NCBI GenBank assembly: GCA_020725405.1
Contig: DYFB01000033.1
Location: 1-54,889 of the forward strand
Length of the DNA stretch: 54,889 bases
DNA from: Symbiobacterium sp.
GTDB lineage: Bacteria; Bacillota; Sulfobacillia; UBA995; UBA9673
Direction: 5' to 3'
Part shown: piece after piece, positions 33,733-37,088 of the stretch
Layout: every line of letters starts with the position of its first letter
Position numbering within the stretch: the first letter of the stretch is position 1
The notes under the pieces: model-generated
Database searches by the model: none
What the model was told of the DNA's origin: nothing
The model's input: the letters and a program-made list of their open reading frames with translations, nothing else
Position numbers and translations under genes: made by a program

Positions 33733-34092
33733 TTGGAGGTCACCCGCGACCTGGCGATTCTGGCCACCCGGGCGGCCGAAGAGCGAAAGGCGTCGAACGT
33801 CCTGCTCCTGGACCTTCGCGGCCTCACCCTGCTGGCCGACTACTTCCTCATCGCCAGCGGGGACAGTCAGCGCCAGGTGAGAGCCATCGCCGAGCATCTC
33901 GAGGAGACGCTCGGCCGGGCCGGGCTGCGGCTCCTCCACCGTGAGGGTTTCGAGAAGGCGCGCTGGGTCCTGCTCGATTTCGGCGGTCTTGTGTGCCACA
34001 TCTTCAATCCGGCCGACCGCGACTTCTTCGGGCTCGAGCGCTTCTGGGGCGACGCTCAGCGGGTGCCCCTCGACGGCCAGCGTTCGACTTGA
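33733..34092 (+). CDS. rsfS: Ribosome silencing factor RsfS
   Basis: 119 residues; DUF143/Iojap fold with LAILATRAAEERKASNVLLLDLRG, LADYFLIASGDSQRQVRAIAE and WVLLDFGGLVCHIF. Binds L14 and blocks subunit joining. TTG start with GGAGG 7 bases upstream. It follows nadD and an LCP gene, the standard Bacillota order nadD-(yqeK)-lytR-rsfS, here without yqeK. The leuS promoter overlaps its stop codon. Confidence 0.94.
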   Translation: MEVTRDLAILATRAAEERKASNVLLLDLRGLTLLADYFLIASGDSQRQVRAIAEHLEETLGRAGLRLLHREGFEKARWVLLDFGGLVCHIFNPADRDFFGLERFWGDAQRVPLDGQRST

Positions 34093-34118
34093 CGCGTCGC
34101 GACCGTGTCTCATATAAT
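34089..34118 (+). promoter_or_regulatory. Promoter of leuS
   Basis: TTGACG (34089-34094), 18-base spacer and TATAAT (34113-34118), overlapping the rsfS stop codon. The predicted start is near 34125, giving a leader of about 430 bases that contains the T-box and the tRNA-Ala. Confidence 0.8.
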
Positions 34119-34344
34119 GAACGACGCAGTATGACCGGCCAACTGAACCGCTTTTCGGCAAAGCGATGACCGGAAGCAGTAGGCCCGTTCGGCTTCTCCC
34201 AGAGAACCGGGTGTGAACGGGTGGGAACCGGCAGGAGCCGGAGGGCCGAACTCGTCCGGGAGCGCGCTGGCGAAACCGCCAGTAGTCAGCGACGGATGGC
34301 CGCCGTTACCCGGCCGTAGAGTGGATAGAGGGCGCAGTCTTGGT

Positions 34345-34420
34345 GGGGCCGTAGCTCAGCTGGGAGAGCGCGTGAATGGCATTCACGAGGCCGTGGGTTC
34401 GACCCCCATCGGCTCCACCA
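34345..34420 (+). tRNA. tRNA-Ala (anticodon GGC)
   Basis: 76 bases including encoded CCA. Acceptor GGGGCCG/CGGCTCC with the G3-U70 pair that identifies alanine tRNAs (G34347 and T34414), D arm GCTC...GAGC, anticodon stem CGTGA/TCACG with loop ATGGCAT (anticodon GGC at 34378-34380), five-base variable region, T arm with loop TTCGACC, discriminator A. Four bases upstream, TGGT (34341-34344), can pair with the ACCA end and lengthen the acceptor helix to 11 bp. It lies inside the leuS T-box leader. Confidence 0.95.
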
Positions 34421-34463
34421 TTATAACTTTTTATCAATAAGGGTGGTACCGCGGGAAGCTCGA

Positions 34464-34500
34464 GGGCTTCTCGTCCCTGAGGACGAGAAGCCCTTCGGCT
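34464..34500 (+). terminator. T-box terminator hairpin of leuS
   Basis: Perfect 13-bp stem (34464-34476 with 34481-34493) closed by a CTGA loop, followed by TTCGGCTTA, a poor T-tract. Its 5' strand overlaps the CCCT needed by the antiterminator, the mutually exclusive arrangement expected of a T-box. Confidence 0.85.
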
Positions 34501-34553
34501 TATCCGGGCCGCTATCCGGACCGCGCGGACCGCCCGCACCCGGAGGGACCCCG

Positions 34554-37088
34554 ATGCAGACGCGGGTTTCTGAACCGAAGACGGCTGGGGCGGCCGGAGT
34601 CGCCCCGCCCCAGATCGGCCGGCGCTACGACTTCCGCCGCATCGAGAAGAAGTGGCAGGACGAATGGGACCGGCGGCGGGCCTTCGACGTCGACGCCGAC
34701 CCGGACCGCCTCAAGTACTACTGCCTGGTCATGTTCCCGTACCCCTCGGGGGAGATCCACATGGGCCACTGCCGGGTCTACAGCATCGGCGACGTCGTGG
34801 CCCGCTACAAGAAGATGTGCGGCTACAACGTCCTTCACCCGATGGGCTGGGACGCCTTCGGCCTGCCGGCGGAGAACGCGGCCATCAAGGCCGGCCGGCA
34901 CCCCCGGGACTGGACCGTGGCCAACATCAACCGGATAAAGGAACAGCTCCATGACCTCGGGATGAGCTACGACTGGCGCCGTGAGGTCACGGCCTGCTTT
35001 CCCGATTACTACCGCTGGACGCAGTGGCTCTTCCTCCTGATGTACCGCCGCGGGTTGGCCTACCGGAAGAAGGCCCCCGTGAACTGGTGCCCGACCTGCG
35101 CCACGGTGCTGGCCAACGAGCAGGTCGTCGGCGGCGCGTGCTGGCGGTGCGAGACCCCCGTCGTCAAGAAAGAGCTCGAGCAGTGGTTCCTGCGTATAAC
35201 CGATTACGCCGACCGCCTGCTTGACGACCTCGCCCTGCTCACCGGCTGGCCGGACAGGGTCCTGACCATGCAGGCCAACTGGATAGGGCGGAGCCGAGGG
35301 GCCTATATCGACTTCCCGCTGGCGGACGGGTCCGGGGAGCGGCTCCGGGTCTTCACCACCCGTCAGGACACCCTGTGCGGGGCGACGTACATGGTCGTCG
35401 CCCCGGAGCACCCGCTGGTCGCGCGCCTCATCTCCGCTGGCGGGCCCGGGAGCGAGGAACTGCGGCGGTTCGCCGAACGGGCCCGCAACCTCTCGGAGAT
35501 CGACCGGACCAGCGACCCGGAGAAGGAGGGGCTCGACACCGGTCTCCGCTGCGTCAACCCGGCTACGGGCGAGACCATCCCCATCTACACGGCCAACTAC
35601 ATCCTCCTCGAGTACGGCACGGGGGCCGTCATGGGCGTTCCCGCCCACGATCAGAGGGACTTCGAGTTCGCCCGGAAGTACGGCCTGCCCGTCCGGGTGG
35701 TCATCAAGGGCCCCGACTCGCCCGGGAGCGCCGACGAGATGACGGAGGCCTACGACGGGCCGGGGGTCATGGTGAACTCGGGACGGTTCGACGGCCTGTC
35801 GAGCGAGGAGGGCCTGGAGAAGGTGGCCGCCTGGCTCGAGACGGAGGGGCTCGGGGCGAAGACGACCATCTACCGGCTCCGCGACTGGCTCATCTCACGC
35901 CAGAGGTACTGGGGCGCCCCCATCCCGGTGGTCTACTGCGAGGACTGCGGCGTGGTGCCCGTTCCGGAGGACGAGCTCCCCGTCATGCTCCCGTACCAGG
36001 TGGACTTCACGCCCGGGGTCTCGCCGCTGGCGAGGTCGGAGGACTTCGTCAGGACCACCTGCCCGGGGTGCGGCCGGCCCGCCCGCCGGGAGACCGACAC
36101 GATGGACACCTTCGTCTGCTCGTCCTGGTACTACCTCCGCTACACGTCCCCCGGCCACGACAAGACGCCCTTCTCCCGGGAGGAGGTCGACTACTGGATG
36201 CCCGTCGACCAGTACATCGGCGGCATCGAGCACGCCGTCCTCCACCTGCTGTACTCGCGGTTCTTCACCAAGGTCCTTCATGACGCCGGGCTCGTCGGCT
36301 TCGTCGAGCCCTTTACCAACCTCCTGGCCCATGGGATGGTCACCAAGAACGGGGCGGCCATGTCCAAGTCCAAGGGGAACATCGTCTCACCGGACGAGAT
36401 AACCGTGAGGTTCGGGGCCGACACGGCCCGCGTCTTCACCCTCTTCGCGGCCCCGCCCGACAAGGACTTCGAGTGGACCGACTCCGGGGTCGAGGGCATC
36501 TTCCGGTTCCTCGGCCGAGTCTGGCGCATCGTCCACGACCTGGGCGGCGCGGGAGGAGCCGGCGGTTCGCCGTCCCCCGACGAGGCCGACCGGGACATCC
36601 TGCGCTCGGCCCACCGGATGGTCCGGAAGATGACCCTCGATATCGACCGGCGGTTCAACTTCAACACGGCCATCAGCGCGGCCATGGAGACGGTGAACGA
36701 CCTCTACCGCTACGCGGAGAGCGTGCCGCCGGCGCGCCGTTCGCCGGCCGTCGTCCGGGAGGTCCTGGAGAAGCTCGTCCTGTGTCTTGCGCCCTTCGCC
36801 CCGCATCTGGGCGAGGAGCTCTGGCAGGTCCTCGGCGGCGAGGGGAGCGTTCACGACCAGAGATGGCCGAGCTGGGATGAGGACCTTGTCCGGGCCGAGG
36901 AGGTCGAGGTGGCGGTTCAGGTGAACGGCCGCATCCGTGACCGGGTGGTCGTGGCCGCCGGGACCGGAGAAGCCGAGCTGAGGGAGCTCGCCCTGGCCCT
37001 CGAGAAGGTCCGTCCCCACGTGGAGGGCCGGAAGGTCGTGAAGGTCGTCGCCGTGCCGGACAGGCTGGTGAACATCGTCGTCAAATAG
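34554..37088 (+). CDS. leuS: Leucyl-tRNA synthetase
   Basis: 844 residues. HIGH-type motif HMGH at residues 69-72, a zinc-type CPTC...CWRC pair (about 177-202), the CP1 editing domain (TRQDTLCGATYMVVAPEHPL, YGTGAVMGVPAHDQRD), a second Cys-rich segment (CEDC...CPGC), and the MSKSKGN loop near residue 603 with Ala in place of the first Lys of KMSKS, a variant that occurs in LeuRS. The C terminus carries VAVQVNGRIRDRVVV. ATG 34554 has GGAGGG upstream; the frame is open earlier but that is leader RNA. Regulated by the T-box. Confidence 0.97.
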   Translation: MQTRVSEPKTAGAAGVAPPQIGRRYDFRRIEKKWQDEWDRRRAFDVDADPDRLKYYCLVMFPYPSGEIHMGHCRVYSIGDVVARYKKMCGYNVLHPMGWDAFGLPAENAAIKAGRHPRDWTVANINRIKEQLHDLGMSYDWRREVTACFPDYYRWTQWLFLLMYRRGLAYRKKAPVNWCPTCATVLANEQVVGGACWRCETPVVKKELEQWFLRITDYADRLLDDLALLTGWPDRVLTMQANWIGRSRGAYIDFPLADGSGERLRVFTTRQDTLCGATYMVVAPEHPLVARLISAGGPGSEELRRFAERARNLSEIDRTSDPEKEGLDTGLRCVNPATGETIPIYTANYILLEYGTGAVMGVPAHDQRDFEFARKYGLPVRVVIKGPDSPGSADEMTEAYDGPGVMVNSGRFDGLSSEEGLEKVAAWLETEGLGAKTTIYRLRDWLISRQRYWGAPIPVVYCEDCGVVPVPEDELPVMLPYQVDFTPGVSPLARSEDFVRTTCPGCGRPARRETDTMDTFVCSSWYYLRYTSPGHDKTPFSREEVDYWMPVDQYIGGIEHAVLHLLYSRFFTKVLHDAGLVGFVEPFTNLLAHGMVTKNGAAMSKSKGNIVSPDEITVRFGADTARVFTLFAAPPDKDFEWTDSGVEGIFRFLGRVWRIVHDLGGAGGAGGSPSPDEADRDILRSAHRMVRKMTLDIDRRFNFNTAISAAMETVNDLYRYAESVPPARRSPAVVREVLEKLVLCLAPFAPHLGEELWQVLGGEGSVHDQRWPSWDEDLVRAEEVEVAVQVNGRIRDRVVVAAGTGEAELRELALALEKVRPHVEGRKVVKVVAVPDRLVNIVVK

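Follow-up and report, generated by a model that had tools for sequence, protein, structure and literature searches.

T-box leaders are described as carrying an RRRxG-stem III-AA motif, with stem III belonging to the aminoacylation-sensing domain (PMC7583486, accessible sections). The same sections of this review report that addition of a single nucleotide to the 3' end of a tRNA (Ex1C) makes it act on T-boxes as a mimic of charged tRNA, and they call insertions within T-boxes curious and of unknown function. For precursor tRNAs, pairing of the 5' leader with the 3' RCCA sequence is an anti-determinant of RNase P that inhibits formation of the active complex by the Escherichia coli enzyme (PMC9433436, accessible sections). 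In that account, two leader:RCCA pairs mark the threshold, two or more pairs lower the kcat/Km of E. coli RNase P, and the enzyme unwinds the pairing.

Both kinds of element are found together in the leuS leader of a Symbiobacterium sp. contig (DYFB01000033.1), of which a stretch of 54,889 nucleotides, referred to as the window, was analyzed. All features given below lie on its forward strand. The leader follows a σ70-like promoter identified by consensus match (TTGACG-18-TATAAT; positions 34089 to 34118), and a consensus search of 34000 to 34620 returned no other promoter and none between the leader start and the tRNA described below. The upstream neighbor, rsfS (33733 to 34092; PF02410), lies outside the leader. 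With the tRNA treated as an insert, positions 34157 to 34481 match the Rfam T-box family RF00230 at 94.7 bits (gathering threshold, 93). The specifier CTC (Leu) is located at 34251 to 34253 within GAACTC, as judged from the sequence and the Rfam alignment; it is CTC in most relatives and agrees with the downstream gene leuS (34554 to 37088), which encodes a leucyl-tRNA synthetase with Pfam editing and catalytic domains. The RRRxG motif (PMC7583486, accessible sections) reads GAGTG at 34319 to 34323, directly 5' of stem III. Sequence, Rfam, and locus comparison place the 5' arm of this stem, GATAGAG, at 34324 to 34330 and its 3' arm, TTTTATC, at 34429 to 34435, followed by AA. The UGGN bulge, TGGT, occupies 34444 to 34447 within AGGGTGGTACCGCG (sequence, Rfam) and belongs to an antiterminator that, with a presumed competing hairpin, spans 34440 to 34509 (fold z-score of -5.4 for 34438 to 34510). 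The hairpin at 34461 to 34515 is very strong and gave no match to a U-run terminator, while U-runs are present in two relatives (L041 and G400). Such a hairpin might terminate transcription in another way or act in a translational mode.

The loop of stem III holds a complete tRNA-Ala(GGC) gene with an encoded CCA (34345 to 34420), recognized by both ARAGORN and Rfam (60.7 bits). Its cloverleaf, anticodon, and CCA are all present, all of its pairs are standard, and the acceptor stem forms seven of seven pairs, including G3:U70. No second tRNA with this anticodon was found in its own genome. Read directly from the letters of the window, the four bases immediately 5' of the tRNA are TGGT (34341 to 34344), and they are exactly complementary to A73 and the encoded CCA (ACCA, 34417 to 34420), as the original prediction had it. 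Together with the seven acceptor pairs, these four pairs give the 11-bp extended acceptor helix that was proposed, and the bulge TGGT does lie 24 bases downstream of the ACCA. With four leader:RCCA pairs, the precursor falls within the published class of extended acceptors (at least two pairs). Adding the four pairs lowers the nearest-neighbor energy from -27.9 to -36.4 kcal/mol, a gain of 8.5 kcal/mol, and their predicted pairing probability, 0.89 to 1.0 for the precursor in isolation, is about 0.7 in the whole-leader ensemble. In a competing predicted fold, the leader pairs with the D arm of the tRNA. Since RCCA pairing inhibits E. coli RNase P, but G(-2)U(-1) is nevertheless present in 18 of 87 E. 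coli precursors (PMC9433436, accessible sections), the closed form is expected to be cleaved more slowly but not to be exotic.

The appropriate background for the leader TGGT is the set of other tRNA leaders rather than the base composition of the window, under which TGGT at one fixed site has a P value of 0.0029. The leaders of the 30 tRNAs of the same genome (L011 to L040) were permuted among the tRNAs 5,000 times. A pair between bases -1 and 73 is formed in 22 of the 30 tRNAs, compared to a permuted mean of 13.3, and at least two leader:RCCA pairs are formed in 20 of the 30, compared to 11.1; neither count was reached in any permutation. Base -1 tracks the discriminator, with A73 mostly accompanied by U, G73 by C, and U73 by A. 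At least one pair is likewise formed in 30/39 tRNAs of G400, 26/36 of G257, and 28/43 of G021, all above permutation (for G021, 2 of 5,000 permutations were as high), and G(-2):C74 pairing exceeds permutation in all four genomes. A single-site chance match was rejected as the sole reading, given this genome-wide excess of -1:73 and -2:74 pairing. The full TGGT also precedes tRNA-Pro(CGG), tRNA-Pro(GGG), and tRNA-Trp (the last with one G-U pair) in the same genome, and in G400 it stands directly before tRNA-Lys, -Met, -Val, -Pro, and -Ala(CGC). None of the ten T-box matches falls on the contigs that carry the tRNA-Pro and tRNA-Trp genes with TGGT (C30, C4, and C13), nor does any match exceed the cutoff there. 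The match between leader and tail is real but of an ordinary kind, common among the precursor tRNAs of this genome, and the TGGT belongs to a known phenomenon in which pre-tRNA leaders pair with the CCA end. The resemblance to the T-box bulge that had been pointed out holds at the level of the letters, but the same leader occurs before three tRNAs away from any T-box found, and the two TGGTs are alike because each is a complement of ACCA.

The arrangement of a tRNA nested before a T-box is not confined to the window. A pattern consisting of any tRNA 3' half with CCA, followed by GGTGGNACCGCG within 32 bases, matched 62 of 398 genomes from the phylum, at one site each, and the reversed pattern gave none. 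The count is a lower bound because the pattern requires both an encoded CCA and an intact T-box motif; for instance, G281 was missed here and found nested by a class-level search (L355). Although the pattern specifies no tRNA species, all 62 nested tRNAs are tRNA-Ala(GGC), and no other tRNA was found nested. By a simple pattern, most of the 62 loci have a CTC specifier. Among the 59 loci that could be anchored (L121, L147, and L170 were dropped), stem III around the tRNA forms six of six pairs in 36 and five of six in 17. The mean is 5.42 pairs, compared to 4.49 for swapped partners, and the first pair occurs as G-C, A-U, U-A, and C-G; this covariation is modest evidence, because the conserved arms already give the swapped control 4.49 of 6. 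Rfam finds the T-box and the tRNA co-located in the window and also in L190, L338, L340, and L148.

In 55 of the 62 nested loci, leuS lies directly downstream. The remaining seven comprise L145 to L149, with another gene, L130, with a group II intron-like sequence, and L168, which reaches the contig end. In L145 to L149, the nested T-box carries CTC before a non-leuS gene within 1.5 kb downstream, and in L148 this gene encodes an AMP-binding, acyl-CoA synthetase-like enzyme (PF00501). The intron-like sequence of L130, recognized by eye, begins just after the T-box hairpin. At the class level, 61 genomes were searched, with 30 loci among the matches listed. The 27 further leuS loci among these matches include 15 with the nested arrangement, 2 with the tRNA and a degraded T-box motif, 2 with a T-box alone, 7 with neither, and 1 with too little sequence. 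L349 and L351 keep the tRNA-Ala(GGC) upstream of leuS despite a degraded-looking T-box motif. In L184 (G401, positions ~200 to 330), the nested tRNA-Ala upstream of leuS and its T-box motif is reduced to the 3' half; the 5' half has been replaced, perhaps by an integrated element or through misassembly. In a Chloroflexota metagenome-assembled genome (L088, 1055 to 1130), a tRNA-Ala(GGC) abuts the leuS start, with no T-box motif seen.

On a LeuS tree (FastTree, 161 partial sequences), the nested state requires 16 changes, compared to 53.4 when shuffled, and the well-supported branches force at least six, so the state is clustered yet patchy. G257 is present twice in this tree under two labels, an artifact of the start of the LeuS match. 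The tree does not distinguish among a single origin followed by losses, several gains, and transfer. No description of a tRNA gene inside a T-box was found in the openly accessible literature searched, which included the TBDB paper and the review PMC7583486. The tRNA-capped T-box seems to be undescribed in this literature, and it is this setting, rather than the TGGT, that is the notable object.

Overall, in the reading that we consider likely (probability of roughly 0.7), the leuS leader has two roles, as a leucine T-box whose stem III is capped by tRNA-Ala(GGC) and as the precursor of that tRNA. The sequence, the architecture, its distribution, and the genome-wide pairing are observed, while the common transcript, the processing, and the slower cleavage are inferred. 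One promoter would transcribe leader and tRNA regardless of the decision of the T-box on leuS, and RNase P, together with a 3' processing step, would excise the tRNA from the stem III loop. The TGGT would represent the long end of the -1:73 and G(-2):C74 pairing that is general to pre-tRNAs of this lineage. By analogy to the E. coli enzyme, it would close the precursor as an 11-bp helix that probably slows cleavage by RNase P until it is unwound, and it would have no part in T-box sensing.

The original prediction had named conservation of the upstream TGGT as a test, and the outcome speaks against the prediction: among the 62 nested loci of the phylum, it is present in the window alone. Contiguous pairs with ACCA number none in 3 of these loci, one in 14, two in 44, and four in 1. 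At the class level, 3 of 19 nested loci have TGGT, and all three belong to the family of the window (the window, G398, and G400; G398 corresponds to L183, apparently the same contig as L041). Within this family, TGGT is kept in 3 of the 3 genomes with a readable locus, while the surrounding leader has changed; the fourth genome, G399, gave no leuS locus. Of the genomes in the neighboring family of the same order, G257 carries CCGT at this site, the 5' half of the tRNA is missing from G401, and G402 has neither T-box nor tRNA. The longer match could have arisen by drift, with GC-rich leaders that carry U(-1) and G(-2) sometimes yielding a functionless TGGT. This agrees with its disappearance outside the family and with the four-pair class itself, which is found in 4 of the 30 tRNAs of the genome, compared to 3.2 in permuted leaders (39% of 5,000 reach 4), and thus shows no excess over the leader pool. 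Drift alone would not be expected to make base -1 follow base 73 as often as it does (22/30), and we regard it as improbable. Retention of TGGT in the family despite a changed leader leaves room for a local function. In a further reading, slow leaders, with G(-2)U(-1) widely and TGGT in this family, would delay RNase P until the T-box has decided, after which excision would detach the leuS mRNA from the sensing half of the leader and leave it with a new 5' end. This reading is rather unlikely. G(-2)U(-1) precedes 45 of 62 nested tRNA-Ala(GGC) genes but, among the matches listed, 44 of 115 non-nested ones (Fisher P = 1.7e-5, ignoring relatedness), which suggests that nesting may favor slow leaders. 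It also accompanies 11 of 12 class-level nested tRNAs with an encoded CCA, compared to 3 of 7 without (P = 0.038, again ignoring relatedness), and such pairing slows the E. coli enzyme (PMC9433436, accessible sections). However, these counts are uncorrected for phylogeny, the non-nested set was taken only among the matches listed, and ordinary tRNAs of these genomes often show this pairing as well.

In the cis switch put forward in the original prediction, the nested ACCA would alternate between the leader TGGT and the bulge TGGT and thereby help to set the antiterminator. Its closed half is plausible in light of the published anti-determinant (PMC9433436, accessible sections), whereas the contact between ACCA and the antiterminator found no support. 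Both TGGT sites are complementary to ACCA, and the family retains the 4-bp leader, both of which speak for a switch. Beyond the restriction of the TGGT to this family, the encoded CCA is absent in 7 of the 19 nested class-level loci (L340, L341, L345, L346, L347, L354, and L355), in all of which the T-box is kept. Precursors without an encoded CCA contain nothing able to pair with UGGU in this way, so that the nesting cannot be explained by contact of the encoded ACCA in cis. The specifier calls for leucine, while the nested anticodon is GGC. In addition, T-boxes sense a free tRNA 3' end, whereas the nested ACCA is trailed by ~20 bases of RNA in the precursor, and because a 3' extension mimics charging, as with Ex1C (PMC7583486, accessible sections), the nested tRNA would count as charged for the T-box. 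The predicted probability of pairing between ACCA and the bulge is 0.0001 in the whole-leader ensemble, and the loci that keep the tRNA beside a degraded-looking T-box motif (L349 and L351) argue that the tRNA is independent of the bulge. Given the poor conservation, the partial absence of CCA, the wrong specifier, and the 3' extension, the cis switch was rejected as very improbable.

The T-box insert in this leader is a complete tRNA gene, located at the same place in dozens of genomes. In a rather unlikely reading, the locus would be a composite regulator in which RNase P maturation of the tRNA and the decision of the T-box are in competition on a single nascent RNA, with CCA-pairing leaders postponing excision until the T-box has decided. 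Excision would then separate the sensor from its message, the two parts being joined only by stem III. With this setting, it becomes possible to test how a riboswitch functions if RNase P has to cleave through it and whether expression of leucyl-tRNA synthetase is linked to the supply of alanine tRNA.

T-box leaders can undergo processing cleavage ahead of the terminator, for example, in thrS of Bacillus subtilis. Similarly, the leader described here would be cut between the sensor and the terminator region, although RNase P and 3' processing would make this cut by excising a tRNA. Like leucine T-boxes of family RF00230, it shows a full-length match, the CTC specifier, the RRRxG-stem III-AA motif, the UGGU bulge, an antiterminator and a hairpin, and leuS downstream. 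It differs in that a complete tRNA-Ala gene, rather than a small loop, caps stem III and that the hairpin in this genome has no evident U-run. As in the described RCCA extended acceptors, the leader pairs with A73-C74-C75-A76, and unwinding would be needed before cleavage; however, the tRNA of the window forms four such pairs, whereas the accessible sections of that work treat N(-1) to N(-3) with a two-pair threshold for the E. coli enzyme (PMC9433436).
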